NCBI GenBank assembly: GCA_937995755.1 | Contig: CALKJD010000027.1 | Span: 1 to 64,000 of the forward strand | Source: an uncultured Saprospiraceae bacterium | Lineage (GTDB): Bacteria > Bacteroidota > Bacteroidia > Chitinophagales > Saprospiraceae | Direction: 5' to 3' | DNA length: 64,000 nucleotides | Shown here: positions 12,228-55,850 of the stretch, piece after piece | Layout of the letters: the number at the start of each line of letters is the position of its first letter | Numbering within the stretch: the first letter of the stretch is position 1 | The notes under the pieces: generated by a model | Told to the model about the DNA's origin: nothing | What the model saw: only the letters and a program-made list of their open reading frames with translations | The model's database searches: none | Program-made: the position numbers and the translations under genes

Positions 12228-13823
12228 TTATAGTATATACTTCACGCCTATATTGAGGCTTAGATTGTTGATGAGATCATTGTTGGGGCCGATACCATTA
12301 GAAAACGAATGAACACTATACTCAGGTCTCAACACGAATGTAGTACTCTCCGTAAGTTGCTTGTGTAGTCCTAAGCTAATATCTGTAGTCAAATAGATAT
12401 TTTCTTTTAGAGATCCTCTTTCAAATATTCCATCATGAAGTGGCTTATCATCTAAGTCAGAAAAAGGTAGCCTGCCATCCCTAGAGGAAATGTATTTACC
12501 ATCTCTTATAGTTCGTGTCTCTATGCGATAATCAGAATTAACGACTACGTTAGCACTTGCTCCTATACCTAGGTCTAATGCCCAGCGATCAGTCTCTAAT
12601 AGCATGTATTTCAATCCAGCAGACAAGGATAAAATGTTAAACTCAATATGATCCAATGAAGTTTCATATAATGTAAGCGTAGGGTTACCTGTGAGCTCTT
12701 CTATGATACGAGGTTCGTATCCTCTATGAGAGTAACCAAGACCTACAGCAAATTCTTTCTTATCTTTCTTGAACCCAAATTCTATACCTGCAGAAAATCC
12801 AATGCCATATGTTCTAAACCCTTCAGTATCGTAGACATCGTCAAATGGACTATTCACTAAGTTGTTGTCTAGCCCTGCATATAAAAGTAATGACGTTGAA
12901 GTATTATTGCGAGGATACACGATGTATGGTGTATATCTAGCAGCTTTATCCAGCGGTACTCGTATGATAGGTTCCTGATTAGTAATATTTTCTAATCGAA
13001 GGGTAGTTATAGATTCTGTGCTAATCACCTTGAGGTTTTTACCTGTGTCACCTATTGTTGATGTAAGTGCTGGCACTAAGGGCTGTACTTCATATGCAGT
13101 TTGAGAAGCATCGATCTTATCATCTGCGGTACTTCTATATTGTACTCTTCTTACGATATCTCTGGATACTGCTACTTTATTGTTGCTAGCAGTATGGCTA
13201 TTGTCTTTTACTAATGCAGTCGTACGAGTCTTATCTCTTTTGTTCTCTCGATCATTGGAAATATCTGTAGATTCGGTCTGAGTTTGGCTAGTAAGATCTT
13301 TATTATTAATGATCTCTAAGTCATTTACTTTTGATGCATCATTTGCTTTCGCATATATAATAGGTTTCTCTACTTGGAATGTAGTAGGGAGATATTTATA
13401 AAAGTTATTGACAGAGAGTATTAGTATAAATAGTAAACTAAGTTCTAATATTTTGAATCCAACTATTCTTCTGTTTCTAAGTTTCTGGAATTCTAGAGAG
13501 TTATGTAAGAGTTCCCAATGATCTTGTCTATAAGGAGCACGCATATTATTCATCTCCATAGAGACCTTGTCATCGAGCATTTGATCGGTAAGCTGATCTT
13601 CGTCGAGCATATGTTCAAATGTAGACCAGTCGCTAGGATTGCTAGCAGCGGTCATGCCAGCTAGTTTTTGTTTGATAGCATCGTCAAATTTACCTTCAGA
13701 GCTGTTACTTGATAGTCGTGTATTATCGAGCTTTTGCTCAAATGCAGACCAGTCGCTTTTGCTAGCATCTGTCATATCAGTAAGCTTTCGCTTCAGTATG
13801 TCGTCAAATTGTTTGTCTATCAT
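12228..13823 (-). CDS. putative dual-membrane-spanning anti-sigma protein (cytoplasmic repeats, one helix, C-terminal outer-membrane-type beta-barrel)
   Basis: The 531 residues fall into four parts. Residues 1-115 are cytoplasmic and hold three copies of a motif of about 28 residues (6-33, 46-74, 83-111), each with FDD/LDD...(K/S)-M...DW/HW...L-(D/E). One membrane helix spans about 119-141. A polar, disordered linker runs to about 290. A C-terminal region of alternating hydrophobic strands ends in GVKYIL, as outer-membrane barrels do. The start overlaps the ECF sigma gene stop by four bases. This architecture matches the dual membrane-spanning anti-sigma (Dma) proteins reported in Bacteroides thetaiotaomicron. 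Sigma binding by the N-terminal repeats is my inference. Alternative: a plain membrane-anchored OmpA-like barrel protein. Confidence 0.78.
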   Translation of the reverse strand: MIDKQFDDILKRKLTDMTDASKSDWSAFEQKLDNTRLSSNSSEGKFDDAIKQKLAGMTAASNPSDWSTFEHMLDEDQLTDQMLDDKVSMEMNNMRAPYRQDHWELLHNSLEFQKLRNRRIVGFKILELSLLFILILSVNNFYKYLPTTFQVEKPIIYAKANDASKVNDLEIINNKDLTSQTQTESTDISNDRENKRDKTRTTALVKDNSHTASNNKVAVSRDIVRRVQYRSTADDKIDASQTAYEVQPLVPALTSTIGDTGKNLKVISTESITTLRLENITNQEPIIRVPLDKAARYTPYIVYPRNNTSTSLLLYAGLDNNLVNSPFDDVYDTEGFRTYGIGFSAGIEFGFKKDKKEFAVGLGYSHRGYEPRIIEELTGNPTLTLYETSLDHIEFNILSLSAGLKYMLLETDRWALDLGIGASANVVVNSDYRIETRTIRDGKYISSRDGRLPFSDLDDKPLHDGIFERGSLKENIYLTTDISLGLHKQLTESTTFVLRPEYSVHSFSNGIGPNNDLINNLSLNIGVKYIL

Positions 13824-14374
13824 AGTCTCTTCGACAGTATTATCGCTCTTAGTTTTGTTCGTGCTTTTACGAGGTTAGATCTAGAAGTACTTTCGGTTAT
13901 TCCAAGTTGCTCTGCCACCTCTCTGTGCGAGTATCCCTCTATCACATAAAGGTTAAACACAGATCTGTATGCAAAAGTTAGCTGTTGGAGACATTCTAAT
14001 ATCTCTTGTGCTGACATTTGGCTCACTACATCTGGTGTATTGCTACTTAGACCATAAGCTGTCTCTAGGTCTTCTGTCCTCTTTCTGCTCCTCTTACGAT
14101 AATAGTCGATTGCCGTATTGATCATGATTCTTCTGATCCAGGCGGATAGTGATGTTCCGGCTTTGTATTTCGATATATGTCTGAATACTTTAATGAAACC
14201 CTCGTGTAAAATGTCAAGAGAATCTTCACTGTTATTAGAGTATCGCTTACATACAGGTACCATAATAGGGTAGTGGTCTTCGTATAGCTTTTGTTGCGCC
14301 CACTTTTCCTTGCGGATGCACGCAGCTATGAAGTCCTGCTCATTATGTTGTATGTCTATTACAAAATCCATCAC
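13820..14374 (-). CDS. ECF-type RNA polymerase sigma factor
   Basis: A 184-residue extracytoplasmic-function sigma factor with only regions 2 and 4. Region 2 is seen as ILHEGFIKVFRHISKY and AWIRRIMINTAIDYYRK (about residues 50-90); region 4 as YVIEGYSHREVAEQLGITES followed by TSRSNLVKARTKLR. It redirects RNA polymerase to a dedicated promoter set. It overlaps by four bases with the downstream gene for the envelope-spanning partner, the usual layout of a sigma/anti-sigma pair. The recognition helix contains TSRS, the same pattern as in the second sigma module at 37.4-38.0 kb. Its targets are unknown. Confidence 0.93.
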   Translation of the reverse strand: MMDFVIDIQHNEQDFIAACIRKEKWAQQKLYEDHYPIMVPVCKRYSNNSEDSLDILHEGFIKVFRHISKYKAGTSLSAWIRRIMINTAIDYYRKRSRKRTEDLETAYGLSSNTPDVVSQMSAQEILECLQQLTFAYRSVFNLYVIEGYSHREVAEQLGITESTSRSNLVKARTKLRAIILSKRL

Positions 14375-14526
14375 TTAAATATATCTCAATCGGGTCAACT
14401 TTCATAAGATTGTCTCTTGTATTAACGATATTTTAGTCTTTTAGCTGCTTTTCTTAACAGTTTTATTTTGTTGTACTTAATTGAGTGAAGTCATAATTTG
14501 ATTTAGTGCATCCCAAGTATTAGATA

Positions 14527-36008: not shown

Positions 36009-37418
36009 TTACAGTCTAATTTTTATGCCAGCATAAATATGGGTGGTGTTTAGTTTTTTACTATCGCGGTATAGTGAATTGAATGATAGCGCAGAATTAG
36101 CTCTTAGAGATAGAGCAAATTGTGTTGATAGTGCATAGTCGATACTAATCCCAATCTTAGGCGCTATTAAGTTTCTATTGAGTCCAGTGCTGTTATTGTC
36201 GTATGCCAATACTTCCCCAGAAGCATCCAATGTCTTCCCTTCAATGTCTAAAATTCTATCATATCGTATACCTATGCTAGTCTCGATAGACCATTTGGAA
36301 GAGAGGTTAAGTTTGCGGTAAATCGCTGCATCGATAGAGAATAGATTTATTGTATTGTATATAAGTTCTTTTCTTCTACGCTCTTTACTTCTGTATCCAT
36401 CACCGATGAGATTAGTCGTATTTCCAGTTAAGGTGTTTGTAAGTTGGGATAATATTACATCGTTGTGTTGAGTAAATAAAGTATCAGTTTTATTGAAATC
36501 AAATTTCTCAACGAGTAGTGAATATCCTATACCTAATTCGTAGCCCCAGTTATTGCCCTTTTCAGCGGACAGTCCTAATCTAACACTATATCCTGGTAGT
36601 GAAGTTGCATATTCGCTACTGCTGATGTTGTATCCTGAATGTAGTGTAGTACCTCCGAGAAGCGAAAAAGCGTATTTGGTATTTCGCTTGTTGTTTATTT
36701 CGCTTATCTCTTTATCAAACGATATCATTTTATTATTCAATAACAAAGCATCTCTTGATGTGTTAAATGGATTTAACTCAGTCGTGGACAATTGAGAAAG
36801 GTTGAATTGTATTCTTTTGTTTTCAACGTTCAATTTTGGAACTACGAGACTTTCCACTAAACTTACTTGATCCTTATTTGAATCGTTTTGAGTTAGTGTC
36901 AATGGTTTATCATATGTAGATTTGCTATTTATTACTAGAGTTGATTCTTTTGACCTTTGGTTCGGTGTTTTTTCTTCGTTTTTCGCTATAGCTATGTTTC
37001 GCTTGTTTTTTGTCAAATCGGTAATGCTGGTGTGGTCTTCTGTTTTGTGTTGTATAGTATTTGCAATTTGTTTTTTTGTTGACGATTGATTCAATAGATC
37101 AATAGGAGCACTAGTAACTACGTTTGTTTTTGACTTGGTGGATTGTGACTTGTTAGATTGTGATTGTGTTGCTGTATTTTTGGTAGCTGCGTAAGTTTGT
37201 CTTTTATCGTTTGAACTAGACATCATATACATAGCGATGATTACTGCAGTCGCTACCAAAGCACCACTGATCCAAAACCAAATAACTCTACGTTTTGGTT
37301 TTTTTTTCTCCATGCGTGAGTATACACCATCTTCCATAAATTCCCATGATAGATCATTAGGAAGATCTTGTTCAGGTTGACTGTATAGCCCTTTTATTTT
37401 TTTGTCAAAATAGTCCAT
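36009..37418 (-). CDS. putative dual-membrane-spanning anti-sigma protein, second copy
   Basis: A 469-residue protein with the same plan as the one at 12.2-13.8 kb. It has a short cytoplasmic N-terminus with one motif (FDKKIKGLYSQPEQDLPNDL then SWEFMEDGVYSRM, about 4-37), one membrane helix (about 45-66), and a long Ser/Thr/Asn/Lys-rich linker (about 67-235). A C-terminal region of amphipathic strands ends THIYAGIKIRL like an outer-membrane barrel. It overlaps the upstream ECF sigma gene by 14 bases. Compared with the first copy the cytoplasmic part has one motif rather than three. Role as an anti-sigma that reads the outer membrane is inferred from the architecture and from the Dma proteins of Bacteroides thetaiotaomicron. 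Confidence 0.76.
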   Translation of the reverse strand: MDYFDKKIKGLYSQPEQDLPNDLSWEFMEDGVYSRMEKKKPKRRVIWFWISGALVATAVIIAMYMMSSSNDKRQTYAATKNTATQSQSNKSQSTKSKTNVVTSAPIDLLNQSSTKKQIANTIQHKTEDHTSITDLTKNKRNIAIAKNEEKTPNQRSKESTLVINSKSTYDKPLTLTQNDSNKDQVSLVESLVVPKLNVENKRIQFNLSQLSTTELNPFNTSRDALLLNNKMISFDKEISEINNKRNTKYAFSLLGGTTLHSGYNISSSEYATSLPGYSVRLGLSAEKGNNWGYELGIGYSLLVEKFDFNKTDTLFTQHNDVILSQLTNTLTGNTTNLIGDGYRSKERRRKELIYNTINLFSIDAAIYRKLNLSSKWSIETSIGIRYDRILDIEGKTLDASGEVLAYDNNSTGLNRNLIAPKIGISIDYALSTQFALSLRANSALSFNSLYRDSKKLNTTHIYAGIKIRL

Positions 37419-37959
37419 ATGCTTGGTATTTATGGTCCTTAGATATTTGGTTTTTAAGCCATTTTTTAGCTCTGTTGAGTTGCGACCTTGAGGTAACTTT
37501 TGTTATTCCCAATGTTTCGCTGATTTCTGTATGGTTATATCCATCGATTACGTTAAGCATAAATACGATTTTGTAACCTGAAGGCATATTTGAAAGCATC
37601 TTGTCTATATCCTTTCTGTTTAAATGATTTAGTGCTTCACTTTCATCTATGTATTGTTCTGGCGATTCTTCGATAGGATTTAGCAATGTCAATTTTTTGT
37701 ACTTTCTAAGATGTAAAAGGCATTGATTAACTGTGATTTTTCTAAGCCACGTATTCCATGTTCCTTTATCGCTGTCATAAGAATCTATTTTCGTAAACAC
37801 ATTTGCAAAAATTTCTTGAATGATATCCTTCGTATCTTCATGATTGTAGATGTATCTTTTTACAACACTGTAAACGTATGGTACGCAAGCAGTGTACACT
37901 TGCCTGTGAGCAGTGCGACTTCCTTCTTTACAGGATTTTATGAGTGCGTTGTCAATCAA
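37405..37959 (-). CDS. ECF-type RNA polymerase sigma factor, second copy
   Basis: A 184-residue sigma factor with regions 2 (DIIQEIFANVFTKIDSYDSD then TWNTWLRKITVNQCLLHLRK) and 4 (NVIDGYNHTEISETLGITKV then TSRSQLNRAKKWL). It has the same length as the sigma factor at 13.8-14.4 kb and shares the TSRS recognition pattern, so the two are likely paralogues. The downstream envelope-spanning partner overlaps it by 14 bases. There is no other regulator nearby. Targets are unknown. Confidence 0.93.
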   Translation of the reverse strand: MIDNALIKSCKEGSRTAHRQVYTACVPYVYSVVKRYIYNHEDTKDIIQEIFANVFTKIDSYDSDKGTWNTWLRKITVNQCLLHLRKYKKLTLLNPIEESPEQYIDESEALNHLNRKDIDKMLSNMPSGYKIVFMLNVIDGYNHTEISETLGITKVTSRSQLNRAKKWLKNQISKDHKYQAYGLF

Positions 37960-45773: not shown

Positions 45774-48700
45774 ATGAACCAATTCCCAATGGGTGAAGTG
45801 TCTTTTGACACTTGTACTTTCCCATCCCCCCAACTTTCAAAAAATACTCTATCGTCTAAGAATTTAAGTTCTCGAAGTAAGAAAAGTATTTTTTCTTGTC
45901 AGAAACTAATACCAATTTTGATATTAGCGGCATCCTTTTTCTCTATTCCTAATTCTTATGCTCAGCCAGATAATATAGGTACTGAATTCTGGCTTATGTT
46001 TAATCAGAACCATAATGGAGGGGGGACACAGACCTTATTTATTAGTGGACAGACAGCTACAAATGGTGTCGTCGACATACCTGGAATCGGATTTAATCAA
46101 GCGTTTACCATAACTCCAGGTACTGTTACATCTATACCATTGCCGAATGACGTTGATGTCATTACTAGTGATATAGTTGAAAGTAAAGGAATCCATATTA
46201 CGGCAGACGATGATATTGCAGTGTATGGTCTAAATCAGCAGTCAGCTACTACTGATGCATTTTTAGGTATGCCTGCAGATGTGTTAGGTTTAGAATATAT
46301 AGTTTTAGCTTACAATGCGCTAAACAGTTCATTGGGTGCCCAATTTGGGATAGTAGCCACAGCGAATTCAACCACTGTAACCATCACGCCTTCTGTTACA
46401 GTAGGGATAAGGACTGCAGGAGTGCCGTATAATATTATAATGAATCAAGGGGAGGTATATCAATTGGAGTCTGATACTGCTAATGAAGATTTGACAGGAA
46501 CAATTATTACTTCGTCTGCACCAATAGGAGTTTTTGGTGGTGCCGAATGTGTTAATGTTCCATTTAGTGCGTTGTACTGTGATCACTTAGTGGAACAATT
46601 GCCTTCCACTGATACTTGGGGTACTCAATTTTTGACTTCACCCTTAGCTACCAGAACAGGTGGAGATATTTTTCGAATATTATCTTCGGTTGATGCAACT
46701 GACATTACTCTTAATGGTACTGTAGTAGCTACGTTGAACCGTGGAGAATTTCATGAAATGGATCTAAGTTCAGTTTCTTATAATGAGATTTCTGCTACTA
46801 ACCCTGTGTTATTAGCCCAGTATTCAAAAGGTACTACGGCTGATAACGTTACCTCTGATCCTTTTATGATGTTGATTCCACCATTTGAACAATATAGTGG
46901 AGCCGCTACTTTTTCTACTCCCGCGTCTGGTTTTTCAGTGCATTACGTTAATTTAGTAATTCAGGATCCAGGTGTTGGTAGCGTTATGTTAGATGGAGTG
47001 GTAATACCTGCAGGAGATTTTACTAGTATAGGGTCGAGTGGCTTTTCTGGAGCGCAAATTTCTGTTACTGCCGGAGTTCATAGCATCTTTGACCCTAATA
47101 ACTTTCTATTTGGAGGATTAATTTATGGGTTTGGATCTGCTGATTCCTACGGTTATCCAAGTGGATCACTTTATAGTCCAGCTGCTTTAGTTACATCTAT
47201 GACACTGAGTCCTACTAGTGGTGGTAGTAGTAATACAGGAATGCAACATTGTGTTACAACTACCGTATTAGATCAGAATGATATGCCACTTGAAAATATT
47301 AGAGTGGATTTTAATGTCACAGGTGTGAATCCTAATACAAATTTCGTATTTACGGATGCCAATGGAGAAGCAGAATATTGCTATACAGGAGTTAATGGTG
47401 GAGATGATTTAATTACTGCATCTATAGGTAGTCTAAGTGCATCAGGAACAAAGACTTGGGTAACGACTTGTGGACTTGTCGTAGACTGTTCTGCCATTGT
47501 GGATATGACAGTATCTTGTAGGCAAGATTTACCACCGGTAGATTTTACCTTGCCAATGGTAATAGATTCATGTGGGGATATAATTCTATCCGCATTGACG
47601 ATTATATCTGGAAATAGTGGATGTCCTAATGATACATTGTTTATAGATAGAACATACTTTATACAAGATGGAGTAAGTCCAGTAGAGGAATGCATGCAGA
47701 CCTTTACTATTATTAGTGCAATGGATCCTATGTTTACTTCATTTCCATCAGATACGATAGTATTATGTGGAGCAGATACAGCACCAACATCTACAGGTAT
47801 GGCAGAAGGATCACAGGAATGTGATTTCTCTGCAGGAGATGCGGTAGTGACATTTGCGGATTTAATTGTACCAGGCGCTTGTCCAGCAGAAAGTACCATA
47901 ACAAGAACATGGACAGTAACAGATGCCTGTGGTAGAACGACTATGATGGATCAAACGATCATGGTAAGAGATACCGTAGCGCCAGCCATGTTGTGCCAAG
48001 TAGCAACAATAGAACTTGATGCTTTAGGAATGGCGACATTGACAACAGCTGACTTAGATGCAGGATCCACAGATGCATGTGGAGGTCCAATAACCCTATC
48101 ATTGAGCATGGAAAATTTCACTTGTGCGGATGTAGGAGAGAACGATGTATGGCTGATAGGTGAGGATGAATGTGGAAATCAAGATTCTTGTATGGCTGTA
48201 GTCACGGTAGAAGATAATATCGACCCAGTGATTGTATGTCCTTCCGACGTTACTTTAGATTGTGCGCAGGAATATAATTTTAGTATTACGGCTACGGATA
48301 ATTGTAATACTTTCCCTGTAAATGAAGCCGATTTTACTTTAATTGGAATATTGAACGGAACAAGTTACTATAGATCTAATGCTTCATTCACTTGGGCTCA
48401 GGCTAATGCAGACGCACAAGCAAATGGAGGTAATTTAGTATCTATTACTTCAATGGAAGAAAATGATTTTGTCGCAGGAAGTTTCGTTCATATAGGTGCT
48501 AATGACCTAGTCTTAGAAGGTACTTTTGCATGGACAGATGGAGAACTTTTTGGATATTCAAATTGGGAAGCAGGAGAACCAAATAATCTAGGAAATGAAG
48601 ATGGGGTAATTATGCTACCAAATGGCAAGTGGAATGATATCCCTGCTAATTTAAATGTTCTGCCTTATATTTTTGAAGCACCAGATGGGCCTAGAGTACT

Positions 48701-51700
48701 ACAGACTATGGGTGAAGAAAGTGGCGAGTTTTTAGACTTGGGTACTCATGATTATACCTTTGTAGCTACAGATGGATCAGGAAATACATCGGAATGCTCA
48801 TTTACAGTAACCGTGCAAGATGTAGATCCACCAGTAATTATGTGTAATGATGATGTTACCGTTAATAGTGATATGAACTTGTGTGTAGCTGAAGTGGAGT
48901 ATACTATGCCTTTAGTGATGGATAATTGTACTATTGATGCAGAAGCATCGCAGGCGGTTAACGAAATGTTAGTAAGTACATCCGCTGATTGTATTGGATT
49001 AGCAGCAAATCATCATAGGTATTTTGAGAATACTCTAAATGCTGAGATCGCGATTTCGGAGGTGAATTTTGGAATTGCCACTGCAGGAGTAGGTCAGTCA
49101 GTGACCATAAAAATATATTCAATAGATCCAGCGGATGATTTTATTTATGCAAATCTAACAGAGTTAGCATCTTCCGTGGTGACAGTGCCTAACAATATAA
49201 ATAATGTGATCATGACTGAAATGATTGCGGCAACAATACCTGCAAATAAAAATTATGTTCTCACTATTGAAACTCCAAGTACTCAGGATTTTATAATGGG
49301 TTATAATACCTCTGGTGAGACAGCACCAACTTTCGTGGGTGGACCTGCACCAGCAAATTGTAATGCTATAGAACCAACAAATATAGACGGAGTTCTTCCA
49401 GATCATGCAGTTATATTATTGTCCGATGGTATGGCAGAGGCTATGATCACTCAGACTGAAGGTTTACCCTCTGGTTCAGAGTTTCCTCTAGGGACTACAA
49501 CCAATACATTTGTAGCTACAGATTCAGGAGGTAATACAGCAGAATGTAGCTTTACTGTAACAGTCGAAGACGCAGAAGCGCCAACGTTCGACTGTACAGA
49601 TATAACGGTATCACTTGATGATAATGGAGAGTACTTTATTACGGACGATGATGTATTTAATGGAATGATCCAAAATTGGATGGATAACTGTGCACCAGCT
49701 CCAGTAGCCTTTGGTTCTGGAAACCGAACTATTACTTGTGACGATCTTGTCGATGGTACTTTCGAATTCTTCTTTGGAGGTAGGGATGCTATCGGATCAG
49801 ACTATAACGAAATGTTATGTACTGCAACCATTACTGTACGTGAAACAATGGCACCTATGGCTGTATGCCAGGACATTACGATACAGTTAGATGCAGCTGG
49901 CATGGCAATGATAGAAGCATCTGATATTGATGGAGGTTCTTCTGATGACTGTGGAGGTGTAACCATAGCGGCTGATATCACAGAGTTTACTTGTGATGAT
50001 GTAGGAGACAATATGGTGGTGTTGACAGTAACAGATCTAAGCGACAATACAAGCACATGTATGGCCAATGTTACCATAGAAGATAATGTACCTCCAATGG
50101 CAATGTGTCAAGATGTAACGGTTTCGTTAGATGAGAACGGAGAAGCAACGATAGCAGGAGGCACAGTGACGATGGTAACGGGTGTAGAATTGGGTGCAGT
50201 CAGTCAGTTGCCTTCAGATATTATATCAAGTGTATGTGGCCCAGTTGCTACAGCAGCGACTATTTGTGACTGCCCAGATGGGTATGTAGCTACAGGAGTA
50301 GAAGGATTAGAATCAACTGACTTCGGTGGACTAGTAGGAGAGTTCAACATCATATGTAGACAACTATTACCTTCAGGTAACCTAGGAGCTACAAGTATGG
50401 TAACATGTACTAATGGTACAGCGAATACAACCACTGTGATGGGCCCAATATCTACTACGGGTGATAATGTATTAGTTGCTGGCCAATCGAGGATAGGCTG
50501 TGCTATAAACGCAATTACTGTATACTCAGCACCAATGACTCAAGTTTTAGCAGGGAATAATACACCTAATACGGAAGTTGGGTCTTTAGAAGGTATTCCT
50601 GGCGGAGGAGTAAGGCCATTACGAACGGCACCTAATAACAATGTAATCGTAGGGATGCAAACTTTTGATAATCAAGGTAATCCATCGTTTACAACAGGAG
50701 TAGCATGGCGCTATGCACCAATAGAAGAAGTATTAGTGCAATCTGCAGGTGAGTTTGAAATCAATAGTGGCAGTACAGATAATTGTGGAGAGGTTACATT
50801 TACAGTAACACAATCAGAGTTTAGCTGTGAAGATTTAATAGACGGTCAAGTATCAACTGATGTAGAAGTAACTCTGATAGTTACAGATGGATCAGGAAAT
50901 GTGTCGAACTGTACATCTACAGTCACTGTGATGGATGATATCGCTCCATTAATTACATGCCCAGGAACGACAACTGTAAACCTAGAGGCAGGCGCCTGTG
51001 ATTATGTAGTACATTATATAGTAGAAGCATCAGACAATTGTGGGCTGGTAGCAGATGCAGAAGGCAATGAAATTACACAGACAGCAGGATTACCATCTGG
51101 CTCAGTATTTGAGCGAGGTACGACGACTAATACATTCGAAGTAATAGATGCTTCAGGAAATCTATCTACATGTTCATTTGATGTAGTGGTGTTAGAGTTT
51201 CCAAATCCAGTAACGGCTTTGAGCTGTAATGGAAATCTAAACATATCACTAGATCACAACTGTGAAGCGTATATAGGAGCGGATCAAATATTAGAAGGTG
51301 GCGGCTATGGCTGTTATGATGACTATGAAGTAACGATCAGCGGAGTTACAGGGCAGACGATCTTATCACCAGGGACATATTCCGTAACTATCACAGATCC
51401 GGATACCGGCAATAGCTGCTGGAGTGAAGTAACTGTAGAAGATAAACTAGAACCAACATTAGTATGTAGTGATTGTCCACCAGGTTCAATTATGCCTATC
51501 GAGTTACCATTTACAGGTACGTTAGATGCCAATAGCCCAACATGGACGCGTCCATTTGGTCAGGTAGGAGCATGCAACCCATCAGGAGTCGGAGTTGGAG
51601 TATCATACAGTACACATGAGTTTTTAGTATTGACAGGAGCAGATAGTGATTTTGAAGTAGTGACATTCATGGGAGATTCATTTATGGCGATCTATGAAGG

Positions 51701-54700
51701 TAGCTTTGATCCAACTATGCCATGTATGAATATGGTGACCAATAATGATGATAGCGTAGGTTTATTAAGTCAATTTGATGTGATGCTAGAAAGCAATACA
51801 CAATACATCTTAGTAGTCACGACATACGAGCCAGGAACATATGGGGACTATGTAGTAGAGCTAGAAACAGAAGCAGAGTTAATAGTTGCACCACTGGAGT
51901 GTATATTTAAATGCTTTGATGAGGCGGCGATATTAGCTGGAGTACAGTCAGTACCATCTGCAGTAGCGATGGACAACTGTACAGCTAATCTACCAGTCAC
52001 ATATACAGATGTAGTTAGAGATGGAGAGACATGCGGAAGTAGAGTAATCACAAGAACCTTTAGTATTATGGGTTCAAATGGATTAGTATTGACAAGCTGC
52101 GTTGCGGAGTATCAACTGTTCCCAGCACAATTCAGTGATTTTATAACACCACCAGCAGTAGTATCCTTACCATGCGGAAGTGGAACAAGTCCAGAGGAAA
52201 TAGAAGCATATTTTGATAATAAAATAGATACGGATGGCGACGGTATACCAGATACGGATATTAATCCAACAAATGATATCAACGATCCTAACTGTAACCT
52301 ATCGGTAATAGAAAACAATGAAGGAACGAGCTTTGGCTATATCACATACCCAAGCTTAGGCTGTGACGGAAACACACATCTACAAGCAGTAGATAATAAT
52401 ATGTGTGGCTTCTACACGACGTACAGTGACCAAGAGATCCCAACGTGTGGTGCATCATGTGGTAGTAGTAATAAGAAAGTAATCAGAACGTGGACTATAC
52501 TAGATTGGTGTAACGCAGATACAGCACCATTTATCTATATCCAAGTGATCGAGTCAGCAGATAATGAAGCGCCAACGATCGAACTAGTGGACGATTTTGG
52601 CGTAAGTGTAAATCCTTGGAATTGTCTAGGAGAGTTTAGCTTACCAGCACCGACATTGATGCATGATCTATGTTCAACAGAACTAAGTTACACGGTAAGC
52701 GGACCTGCTGGAACGACTTTATTAGCACCTAATACAACAAGTAATCCAAGTGATAACTGGATAGTATTCGGAGCACCGAAGGGAATAGTACCATTTACAT
52801 ACATAGTGTCAGACTGCTGCGGAAATACAAGTAGTGCGGAGCTGAAAGTAAATGTATATGATACGACTCCACCAGTACCAGTAGCTACAGAAAACATCAT
52901 AATAAATCTAACTACAAGTGGACAGTTAGATTCTGATGGAAATGCGCAAGGATTTGCGAAGCTCTATAATACATCAGTAGATAAAGGGTCGTATGACGGT
53001 TGTAGTGATGTAAGAATAGAGATTAGAAGAGAGGAAAGCCCAGTAGCTTGTGGATATACAGGAAATAGCACATATGCTACAAATGATGATTTCCCAAATG
53101 CAGGAGATACTAACCCAACAAGAGCAGACTACGATCCAGATAACGGTGAGTATGTTAAATTCTGTTGTGCAGATATTCCAGATGTAGATCCAGTAACAGG
53201 GGTTGAGTATGGATTGATACCAGTAAGAATGAGAGTATTCGATGATGGAAACATGAACGGAATACTAGGAGACTGGGTAGATGCAGATAACGACGGTGTA
53301 CAAGACGCAGGCGAATATGATAACTTCAACGAAACATGGGTAACTGTGCGAGTAGAAGGGAAAGCAATCGCTAGTATCGTATGTCCACCAGATGTAACAT
53401 TGGCCTGTGATATGGATTATACAGATCCAGCGATGATAGGCACAGCAACTACATTAGCGCTTTGTGGAAGCGAGTCAGTAGACGTAACGTTTAATCCACA
53501 ATTAGATGCTTGTGGAGTAGGATTTGTAATAGCCACATATACAGTTGTAGGATCGTCTAATCCTGTTATTTCATGTAACCAGAGAATAGATATCGAGAAC
53601 CCATACCCATCATTTGATCCAGCAGATATAAACTTCCCAAGAAGTTTACCTACAAATGCGACACAGCAAATATCATGTACGGATGCCTTAACATATGCAG
53701 CACCGACATGGACAGCAGGTGCCTGTGACTTTATCGGATATACAGAAGAGGTAGATACATTCTTCTTCGAAGTAGATCCTAACACAGGAGCGCCAAATGA
53801 TGCATGTTTCAAGATCTTAAGAAGATTCACGGTAATCGATTGGTGTGTGTATGATGCGACTAACGGACAAGATGGATTATATTATGGATCACAAACGATC
53901 AAGATCACAGATAGAGATGCGCCAGTTCTTAATAATTGTGTTGCACAAATGTTTGAAGTAGATGGAGAGTGTGTACGTACAAGTACAGTGCTTACTAATA
54001 ATGCAACTGACTCAGGTAACTGTTCAAGTGATTGGTTGAAGTGGCAAGTGTTTGTTGATACTTGGGGCGATAATGTTATCGATTATGAGTATAGCTCATT
54101 CCTACCATCGAATGATAGTAACATTACAAATGATACCAATGGTAATGGAATCAATGATAAGTACTTAGCGCCAACAAATAGTGGAGAAGATGTGTCAATC
54201 ACTGTATCAGAAGTAATTGAGTCAAGTATGTTTAATCATGTAGTGACTTGGAAGGTGACAGATGGTTGTGGTAATGTAGCATCTTGTACAACTACATTTA
54301 TGGTAGTAGACAAGAAGGCACCAACACCATACTGTGTAAGTTTGAGTACAGCATTGATGGAGAATTCACAAGCAGTAGAGTTATGGGCAATAGATTTCGA
54401 TTTAGGAGCTTTTGACAACTGTACAGCACAGGAGCATCTAAGATTTACATTCAGTAATACAGCACCAGAAGACGATAGTAGCTACGATGCATCACAAAGA
54501 TCAAGTGCGATGTCATTTGGTACAGCAGGAGAAATTCCAGTGAATGTATATGTATGGGATGAGAAAGGAAATGTAGACTTCTGTACAGTAGTATTGACAG
54601 TAATCGACAATGGAGGATCCGGGCTTCGAGTATCAGGAATGGCAGCCACAGAACTAGGGGACGGAGTAGAAGATGCAGAGGTATTAGTAGAGGCGAATCT

Positions 54701-55850
54701 AAGTGAGTATCCAAGGATAGACATGAGTGCCTCTACAGGAGTATATGCATTTGAATCTAATCCAATAGGGATGGATTACGAAGTGAGTGTAATGAAAAAT
54801 GACAACCATACGAATGGAGTAAGTACGTTAGATTTAGTGTTGATCCAACGACATATATTGGCCTTTGCAGATTTAGATAGTCCATACAAAGTAATCGCTG
54901 CGGATATCAATAGAGATGATAAAGTAAGTAGTATAGATGTAGTAGAATTGCGTAAAGTAATTTTAGGTGTACAAGAAGAGTTTAGTCAGAATACGTCATG
55001 GAGATTTGTAGATAGCGGACAGGTGTTTGCAGATATAAGTTCACCATGGCCAGTAGATGAGACAAGGACTATTTCAAGTTTGTCTACGGATATGGAAGCA
55101 GAGGATTTTGTAGCGGTTAAAATCGGAGATGTAAATGCGACAGCTACAGATAATGTATCAGGCGCGAGTACAGAAGTAAGAAGTAGTGAAACGCTTCTAT
55201 TAGAGCTAGAAAGTAGATCGGTAAAAGCAGGAGAGCAGGTGGAGATAACACTAAGTAGTGGTGACTTTACATCGGTATCAGGATTGCAGATGACGGTAGA
55301 GTTTGACGGATTAGCATATACTGATGTATTGAGCAAAGCAATTGTAATAGGCGCACAGAATGTAGGGGTTATCAATGATAAAGTAATTACGATGTCATGG
55401 AATACCAACACAGCGATAACGACAAGTGAAGATTTATTTGTGATCAGAGCAGTGGCTACAAAAGATGGTAACATCAGCGAAATGATCAAAGTAACTGATA
55501 GAGTAATAACACCAGAAGTTTATATAGGGTCAAGTTTAGAAGTACAGAATGTTGAATTAGGAATCAGAGGAGGTAAGGAAGTGGTATTAATCAATGAATT
55601 GATGCAGAATGAGCCTAACCCATTCAAAGAGATGACAACTATAAGCTTCAAGCTAGCGAAAGCAGGCAAAGCAGTATTGACTATAAGAGACGTTACCGGT
55701 AAAGTGTTTAGAAAAGTAAGAGGAGAATATAGCGCAGGAAAGAATACGATAAGTATATCGAAGAGTGAATTAAATGCATCTGGAGTATTATTTTATACCC
55801 TCGATTCAGGAGAATTTAGCGAGACTATGAAAATGATTGTAGTAGAGTAG
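45774..55850 (+). CDS. 3358-residue T9SS surface protein with IgGFc-binding-like, HYR, C-type lectin, dockerin-like and cohesin-like domains
   Basis: The start has an unusually long polar stretch (residues 1-43) before a signal core (LIPILILAASFFSIPNSYAQ, about 45-64). An IgGFc-binding-like domain (about 65-470; GTEFWLMFNQN, GLNQQSATTDAFLGMPADVL) is followed by a Big_1-like Ig domain (about 475-563). Many Cys-containing HYR-like repeats come next (DNC, GTTTNTFVATDSGGNTAECS), interrupted by inserted domains. One insert is a C-type lectin fold (about 850-973; WEAGEPNN, WND). After more Ig-like units come a transthyretin-like piece, a dockerin-like pair (about 3015-3083; LDLVLIQRHILAF, AADINRDDKVSSIDVVELRK), a cohesin-like domain (about 3139-3259) and a T9SS type A sorting domain (about 3272-3358, NEPNPFKEMTTISFKL). 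It is likely a cell-surface adhesin; the ligand is unknown. Confidence 0.9.
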   Translation: MNQFPMGEVSFDTCTFPSPQLSKNTLSSKNLSSRSKKSIFSCQKLIPILILAASFFSIPNSYAQPDNIGTEFWLMFNQNHNGGGTQTLFISGQTATNGVVDIPGIGFNQAFTITPGTVTSIPLPNDVDVITSDIVESKGIHITADDDIAVYGLNQQSATTDAFLGMPADVLGLEYIVLAYNALNSSLGAQFGIVATANSTTVTITPSVTVGIRTAGVPYNIIMNQGEVYQLESDTANEDLTGTIITSSAPIGVFGGAECVNVPFSALYCDHLVEQLPSTDTWGTQFLTSPLATRTGGDIFRILSSVDATDITLNGTVVATLNRGEFHEMDLSSVSYNEISATNPVLLAQYSKGTTADNVTSDPFMMLIPPFEQYSGAATFSTPASGFSVHYVNLVIQDPGVGSVMLDGVVIPAGDFTSIGSSGFSGAQISVTAGVHSIFDPNNFLFGGLIYGFGSADSYGYPSGSLYSPAALVTSMTLSPTSGGSSNTGMQHCVTTTVLDQNDMPLENIRVDFNVTGVNPNTNFVFTDANGEAEYCYTGVNGGDDLITASIGSLSASGTKTWVTTCGLVVDCSAIVDMTVSCRQDLPPVDFTLPMVIDSCGDIILSALTIISGNSGCPNDTLFIDRTYFIQDGVSPVEECMQTFTIISAMDPMFTSFPSDTIVLCGADTAPTSTGMAEGSQECDFSAGDAVVTFADLIVPGACPAESTITRTWTVTDACGRTTMMDQTIMVRDTVAPAMLCQVATIELDALGMATLTTADLDAGSTDACGGPITLSLSMENFTCADVGENDVWLIGEDECGNQDSCMAVVTVEDNIDPVIVCPSDVTLDCAQEYNFSITATDNCNTFPVNEADFTLIGILNGTSYYRSNASFTWAQANADAQANGGNLVSITSMEENDFVAGSFVHIGANDLVLEGTFAWTDGELFGYSNWEAGEPNNLGNEDGVIMLPNGKWNDIPANLNVLPYIFEAPDGPRVLQTMGEESGEFLDLGTHDYTFVATDGSGNTSECSFTVTVQDVDPPVIMCNDDVTVNSDMNLCVAEVEYTMPLVMDNCTIDAEASQAVNEMLVSTSADCIGLAANHHRYFENTLNAEIAISEVNFGIATAGVGQSVTIKIYSIDPADDFIYANLTELASSVVTVPNNINNVIMTEMIAATIPANKNYVLTIETPSTQDFIMGYNTSGETAPTFVGGPAPANCNAIEPTNIDGVLPDHAVILLSDGMAEAMITQTEGLPSGSEFPLGTTTNTFVATDSGGNTAECSFTVTVEDAEAPTFDCTDITVSLDDNGEYFITDDDVFNGMIQNWMDNCAPAPVAFGSGNRTITCDDLVDGTFEFFFGGRDAIGSDYNEMLCTATITVRETMAPMAVCQDITIQLDAAGMAMIEASDIDGGSSDDCGGVTIAADITEFTCDDVGDNMVVLTVTDLSDNTSTCMANVTIEDNVPPMAMCQDVTVSLDENGEATIAGGTVTMVTGVELGAVSQLPSDIISSVCGPVATAATICDCPDGYVATGVEGLESTDFGGLVGEFNIICRQLLPSGNLGATSMVTCTNGTANTTTVMGPISTTGDNVLVAGQSRIGCAINAITVYSAPMTQVLAGNNTPNTEVGSLEGIPGGGVRPLRTAPNNNVIVGMQTFDNQGNPSFTTGVAWRYAPIEEVLVQSAGEFEINSGSTDNCGEVTFTVTQSEFSCEDLIDGQVSTDVEVTLIVTDGSGNVSNCTSTVTVMDDIAPLITCPGTTTVNLEAGACDYVVHYIVEASDNCGLVADAEGNEITQTAGLPSGSVFERGTTTNTFEVIDASGNLSTCSFDVVVLEFPNPVTALSCNGNLNISLDHNCEAYIGADQILEGGGYGCYDDYEVTISGVTGQTILSPGTYSVTITDPDTGNSCWSEVTVEDKLEPTLVCSDCPPGSIMPIELPFTGTLDANSPTWTRPFGQVGACNPSGVGVGVSYSTHEFLVLTGADSDFEVVTFMGDSFMAIYEGSFDPTMPCMNMVTNNDDSVGLLSQFDVMLESNTQYILVVTTYEPGTYGDYVVELETEAELIVAPLECIFKCFDEAAILAGVQSVPSAVAMDNCTANLPVTYTDVVRDGETCGSRVITRTFSIMGSNGLVLTSCVAEYQLFPAQFSDFITPPAVVSLPCGSGTSPEEIEAYFDNKIDTDGDGIPDTDINPTNDINDPNCNLSVIENNEGTSFGYITYPSLGCDGNTHLQAVDNNMCGFYTTYSDQEIPTCGASCGSSNKKVIRTWTILDWCNADTAPFIYIQVIESADNEAPTIELVDDFGVSVNPWNCLGEFSLPAPTLMHDLCSTELSYTVSGPAGTTLLAPNTTSNPSDNWIVFGAPKGIVPFTYIVSDCCGNTSSAELKVNVYDTTPPVPVATENIIINLTTSGQLDSDGNAQGFAKLYNTSVDKGSYDGCSDVRIEIRREESPVACGYTGNSTYATNDDFPNAGDTNPTRADYDPDNGEYVKFCCADIPDVDPVTGVEYGLIPVRMRVFDDGNMNGILGDWVDADNDGVQDAGEYDNFNETWVTVRVEGKAIASIVCPPDVTLACDMDYTDPAMIGTATTLALCGSESVDVTFNPQLDACGVGFVIATYTVVGSSNPVISCNQRIDIENPYPSFDPADINFPRSLPTNATQQISCTDALTYAAPTWTAGACDFIGYTEEVDTFFFEVDPNTGAPNDACFKILRRFTVIDWCVYDATNGQDGLYYGSQTIKITDRDAPVLNNCVAQMFEVDGECVRTSTVLTNNATDSGNCSSDWLKWQVFVDTWGDNVIDYEYSSFLPSNDSNITNDTNGNGINDKYLAPTNSGEDVSITVSEVIESSMFNHVVTWKVTDGCGNVASCTTTFMVVDKKAPTPYCVSLSTALMENSQAVELWAIDFDLGAFDNCTAQEHLRFTFSNTAPEDDSSYDASQRSSAMSFGTAGEIPVNVYVWDEKGNVDFCTVVLTVIDNGGSGLRVSGMAATELGDGVEDAEVLVEANLSEYPRIDMSASTGVYAFESNPIGMDYEVSVMKNDNHTNGVSTLDLVLIQRHILAFADLDSPYKVIAADINRDDKVSSIDVVELRKVILGVQEEFSQNTSWRFVDSGQVFADISSPWPVDETRTISSLSTDMEAEDFVAVKIGDVNATATDNVSGASTEVRSSETLLLELESRSVKAGEQVEITLSSGDFTSVSGLQMTVEFDGLAYTDVLSKAIVIGAQNVGVINDKVITMSWNTNTAITTSEDLFVIRAVATKDGNISEMIKVTDRVITPEVYIGSSLEVQNVELGIRGGKEVVLINELMQNEPNPFKEMTTISFKLAKAGKAVLTIRDVTGKVFRKVRGEYSAGKNTISISKSELNASGVLFYTLDSGEFSETMKMIVVE

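Follow-up and report, generated by a model that had tools for sequence, protein, structure and literature searches.

A sigma factor gene overlaps a gene for a predicted envelope-spanning protein

The 64,000-nucleotide stretch of Saprospiraceae DNA analyzed here (the window) carries on its minus strand an ECF sigma factor gene (13820-14374) that shares a four-base ATGA with a downstream gene encoding a 531-residue protein (12228-13823), an arrangement that matches the original prediction. The sigma open reading frame begins GTG ATG GAT and encodes 184 residues if read from the GTG at 14374, but because its relatives begin at the ATG directly after this codon, translation more probably starts at 14371, giving a protein of 183 residues. 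In Pfam searches the sigma protein matched sigma regions 2 and 4 (E 3e-17 and 5e-16, respectively). The 531-residue protein, a candidate anti-sigma factor of the Dma/Reo type, matched OMP_b-brl_2 only weakly and under the cut-off (0.0079); it had no NCBIfam match and no match in a PDB sequence search. The Pfam search of the pair gave no match to a FecR domain, and a plasmid search found no homolog.

We modeled the 531-residue protein as a single chain with AlphaFold2 using 65 natural sequences. The model begins with helical hairpins at residues 5-15/25-37 and 45-55/64-74 (confidence about 55-68 pLDDT), followed by a helix at 80-93 and a long helix at 100-144 that holds the membrane span. This span, residues 120-138 (13410-13466, minus strand), is the one hydrophobic helix in the protein and is predicted to be its single inner-membrane helix. 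Lysine and arginine are enriched on the N-terminal side of the helix (mean of 4.7 versus 1.7 on the other side, with the N-terminal side higher in 87 of 93 homologs), which argues that the N-terminal hairpin modules sit inside the cell. A Lys-x-x-Glu motif within the helix or at its starting edge (13443-13454) is near-invariant, with Lys124 in 63 of 65 sequences, Arg in the other two, and Glu127 in 64 of 65, unlike the remainder of the membrane helix, which varies across the family.

Beyond the helix, AlphaFold2 and homolog comparison delimit a polar periplasmic tether of residues about 145-307 (12903-13391, minus strand), predicted to be disordered (pLDDT below 50 at 152-303). Across homologs its sequence conservation is almost absent and its median length is 167 residues (quartiles 151 and 181); length is thus kept while sequence drifts, as expected if only reach matters. 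The C-terminal part of the protein, residues 308-531 (12231-12902, minus strand), is by AlphaFold2 and fold comparison an eight-stranded outer-membrane barrel. The original prediction had staked itself on a closed barrel at this end, and the model has one, with eight long strands (308-530) at a pLDDT of about 95; Foldseek shows a resemblance to NspA, OmpA and OmpW, which are its nearest solved folds (Z 16-18). Eight strands would leave the two ends of the barrel on the periplasmic side, where the tether needs them. Overall, the model, hydrophobicity and charge bias agree on the order first read from the sequence (cytoplasmic N-terminus, one inner-membrane helix, polar linker, barrel end), and prediction thus shows a layout spanning both membranes, with cytoplasmic modules and a closed barrel.

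The pair is conserved across the Saprospiraceae

We found homologs of the 531-residue protein in 22 of the 25 Saprospiraceae genomes searched, with no match in the other three, and 16 other genomes of the order yielded one weak match. In all 20 loci first read, a sigma gene lies directly upstream of the homolog. We extended this survey by scanning named genomes with an alignment of the sigma factor, the alignment of the divergent 531-residue homologs being too variable for a contig scan, and obtained the 80 best-matching relatives out of at least 582. In each of these 80 named Saprospiraceae loci the gene after sigma encodes a barrel protein of the same layout, the two genes mostly overlap by 4, 8, 11 or more bases, and every downstream protein matches a profile of the barrel derived from the initial set of loci. 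The nearest relatives of the sigma factor within this best 80 belong to Saprospiraceae metagenome-assembled genomes, including UBA1994 (96% sigma identity). Retention of the protein in 22 of 25 genomes and of adjacency in 20 of 20 and 80 of 80 loci argues that the pairing is not due to chance. The genes flanking the pair in the window are conserved only within the genus, so the sigma gene and its partner form a unit of their own.

The genome holds at least 11 pairs of a sigma gene and a gene of Dma layout, with different barrels. A second pair lies in the window at 36009-37959 on the minus strand, where a sigma gene (37405-37959) accompanies a gene for a 469-residue partner (36009-37418) with one module-like N-terminus and a membrane helix at residues 45-63. 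Elsewhere in the window, a single open reading frame of 3358 residues occupies 45774-55850 on the plus strand. A candidate natural fusion of sigma factor and Dma-like protein, an 861-residue frame in another genome (G093), turned out to reflect an open stretch ahead of the sigma gene and not a joining to the anti-sigma protein.

The cytoplasmic region is a tandem array of hairpin modules

The N-terminal repeats mentioned in the original prediction are real, and they belong to a tandem array of a hairpin of about 35 residues that contains a tryptophan and approximates the consensus FDxxIKxKL, then variable sequence, then W-xx-[FLM]-xxx-L. The window protein has three copies, all on the minus strand. 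Module 1 (residues 5-37; 13713-13811) and module 2 (residues 45-74; 13602-13691), helical hairpins by AlphaFold2 and sequence comparison, are 58% identical to one another and only 16-19% identical to module 3 (residues 80-110; 13494-13586), which contains Trp103 and is of the membrane-proximal type, a type with its own signature, vPYxxxHW.

Module number varies widely. Among 97 proteins, a set in which some loci are represented twice, once from each of two collections, four have one module, 50 have two, 32 have three, six have four, three have five and two have six to eight; no module lies C-terminal of the membrane helix in any of them. By eye, L036/L187 have four. A second AlphaFold2 model, of a five-module protein (L162), has ten helices forming five hairpins ahead of the membrane helix. 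The largest members, L116 and also L126 and L127, have about six to eight modules in 750-780 residues. Distal modules are 35% identical within one protein and 26% between proteins, and distal and last modules of the same protein are 23% identical, a pattern that points to tandem duplication of the distal modules with the last one kept. On the sigma tree, module number requires at least 20 changes, and well-supported sister loci differ in it (three in L150, four in L178). Beyond the Saprospiraceae, genomes of a different family (f19) encode arrays of several modules, with about four to seven counted by eye, and in many other Bacteroidia there is a single module. The distal modules could serve as spacers, or each could add binding strength or a binding place; conservation of the tryptophan in every copy would favor their being binders.

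A predicted promoter is shared by the operon and a lipoprotein gene

ECF sigma factors usually autoregulate. In a dyad search of the 79 regions upstream of the sigma genes, 51 had CAGC-N17-CGTT, compared with at most eight for any dyad in shuffled sets, and the exact matches rose to 68 of 79 once the N16 spacing found in the window's genus was also allowed. The fuller pattern GCAGC-N15..18-CGTT has a perfect match upstream of 62 of the 79 operons versus 3 of 237 regions upstream of other open reading frames at the same loci. In the window, the predicted promoter is GCAGC-N16-CGTT at 14424-14448 (minus strand), about 50 bases before the sigma start; it is the sole match to the pattern in the 64 kb, and we take it to be autoregulatory. 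The same promoter was looked for ahead of Bacteroidales pairs and was not found.

Intergenic matches within the genus point to few other targets. The promoter precedes the operon in all four genomes and a lipoprotein gene in all three genomes that have it. The predicted lipoprotein is about 260 residues long, with a lipobox cysteine and two further invariant cysteines; Pfam searches turned up nothing convincing for it, and it had no match in the PDB. Of the 150 family genomes, 81 carry a single copy. We read 69 upstream regions, of which 62 have a perfect site and 65 match at eight or more of nine positions; shuffled sequences gave 0.0007 perfect sites each and reversed sequences none. These counts strongly indicate that the operon and lipoprotein promoters are read by one sigma factor, and a single operon unit whose predicted promoter is common to the pair and the lipoprotein gene is strongly supported.

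The present sigma factor is probably the reader. Related sigma factors of f19 have GCAAC-N17-CGTT upstream instead, so the -35 element changes with the sigma clade, and this shift together with the predicted autoregulation of the operon leads us to infer that the sigma factor encoded beside the site recognizes it.

Other candidate targets fared less well. An FKBP-type lipoprotein has the site in two of the four genus genomes and not beyond the genus, which leaves it a possible minor target, and a MlaD-like gene has it in a single genome. A wider regulon was likewise set aside, as most other pattern matches lie inside genes and the background in other genera is high. We found no core regulon of chaperone or Bam type; the consistent targets in the genus are the operon and the lipoprotein gene only. 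A sharp promoter and one predicted target lipoprotein, conserved across most genomes that have it, provide a handle for study.

Relationship to Dma and Reo proteins

Dma proteins consist of an N-terminal anti-sigma domain, a membrane helix, a disordered tether and a C-terminal barrel, and are encoded beside an ECF21 sigma gene (PMC13088901). Deletion of dma2 in Bacteroides thetaiotaomicron raises das2 by 4.5 log2, in line with autoregulation (PMC13088901). Reo of Phocaeicola vulgatus has the same layout, and its pair is induced by an envelope-perturbing toxin, the sigma gene 33-fold (PMC9308784). The likeness to B. thetaiotaomicron Dma proteins that was suggested from the sequence holds point by point against the published layout (PMC13088901): Dma1/Das1 and Dma2/Das2 likewise place an ECF sigma factor next to an anti-sigma, helix, tether and barrel protein. 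Profile comparison with Bacteroidales Dma-like proteins, those of a NigD-bearing Bacteroidia genome (G072), relates both ends, the module to their N-termini (probability 95.5%, E 1.4e-8) and the barrel to theirs (probability 98.6%), although the barrel similarity may in part be at the superfamily level. The modeled window protein thus has the structural features of the Dma kind, and it differs from the Bacteroidales Dma-like proteins compared in having three tandem modules where those have one.

EcfO-Reo of P. vulgatus and Bacteroides fragilis is likewise a sigma factor with an envelope-spanning anti-sigma factor ending in a barrel. Its sigma gene is induced with its regulon, which contains surface lipoproteins, three of them NigD (PMC9308784, PMC13114119), and EcfO is needed for NigD surface lipoproteins (PMC13114119). 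In contrast, the lipoprotein target predicted here has no detectable NigD similarity: an apparent homology was limited to the signal peptide, and the present genome has no match to NigD (PF12667). Membership in the EcfO-Reo/Das1-Dma1 subgroup, taken as NigD in both genome and regulon, therefore does not extend to the present system. The Dma-like pairs of the NigD-bearing genome G072 have one module each, and one such sigma/Dma-like pair, L407:215-2988, lies divergent from a NigD gene. As judged from sequence, the present system and EcfO-Reo share output logic and not the gene. This parallel suggests that the core output of such systems is the making of a cell-envelope lipoprotein, which would direct work toward lipoprotein function.

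Relative to the Dma/Reo literature compared, the kind of system is already known, and the module arrays and conserved predicted target are new. The original prediction was right about the protein and its kinship; the expansion of the modules, the spread of the pair, the promoter and the target were absent from it. A small number of studies, all on gut Bacteroidales, have described anti-sigma factors that span the envelope, and the same layout now extends across a distant, mostly uncultured family.

A proposed envelope-stress switch and its alternatives

The best full explanation, and one we consider probable, is that the pair works as a Dma/Reo-type switch that responds to envelope stress and regulates its own expression. 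The cytoplasmic hairpin modules would hold the sigma factor at the inner membrane, an anti-sigma action suggested by gene order, homology and published relatives, while one helix would span the inner membrane, a flexible tether of approximately 165 residues the periplasm, and the eight-stranded barrel would sit in the outer membrane. By analogy with these relatives, failure of barrel insertion or disturbance of the outer membrane would destabilize the protein or lead to its being cut, freeing the sigma factor. The freed sigma factor would then transcribe its own operon and the gene for the approximately 260-residue lipoprotein, and in some species also that for the FKBP foldase lipoprotein.

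The input could instead be a ligand or surface contact at the outer loops of the barrel, with the anti-sigma action retained and general stress playing no part. The barrel forms a domain of its own, is well conserved and has long outer loops, and the different barrels of the at least 11 pairs in the genome suggest different inputs. Even so, it is small, with eight strands and no plug seen, and the closest studied relatives answer envelope damage (PMC9308784), making this reading unlikely. We give slightly less credence to cleavage of the protein after export, leaving the barrel and the inner-membrane portion to work independently: published descriptions of Reo and Dma have each as one continuous protein (PMC13114119, PMC13088901), and although the disordered, unconserved tether could be the cut region, its length stays within a narrow range despite sequence drift. 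That another ECF sigma factor reads the promoter, making the pair a target and not a regulator of the lipoprotein, is improbable, for although some 35 sigma-70-type genes in the genome score above the family threshold and one of the own-genome sigma genes tested has an 8/9 site, only the present one has a 9/9 site, the site lies upstream of the present sigma gene in nearly all loci, its -35 element follows the sigma clade, and autoregulation is usual for this class.

Within the envelope-stress switch, we entertain tentatively, as something of a long shot, that the modules form a multivalent array in which each module or module pair would bind one sigma factor, so that stored copies would be released together. 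If true, evolution would tune threshold and burst size through module gain and loss. The natural series of one to at least eight modules offers a means of studying how the sigma factor would be retained by the cytoplasmic end.

RseA, an inner-membrane anti-sigma factor of sigmaE, is tied to outer-membrane assembly stress. It shares the inner-membrane anti-sigma role proposed here and differs in having no outer-membrane part. FecI-FecR-FecA likewise signals from the outer membrane to an ECF sigma factor (review PMC9249621), but does so through FecR and a separate TonB-dependent transducer, whereas the window system is one polypeptide with no FecR domain found and an eight-stranded barrel without a plug, which sets it apart from FecR-type systems.

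In other Bacteroidia, proteins encoded downstream of sigma factors of the same subgroup have one or more modules and a membrane helix followed by a CHU_C type IX secretion signal domain, with no barrel. Examples are L200:118-1455 (minus strand) and L204:1584-2846 (plus strand), both with PKD domains, and L205:2497-3696 (minus strand), with L201-L203 and L206 assigned by eye. From its sequence, this variant is a candidate anti-sigma factor whose far end resembles type IX secretion cargo, and it could sense the working of that secretion system.
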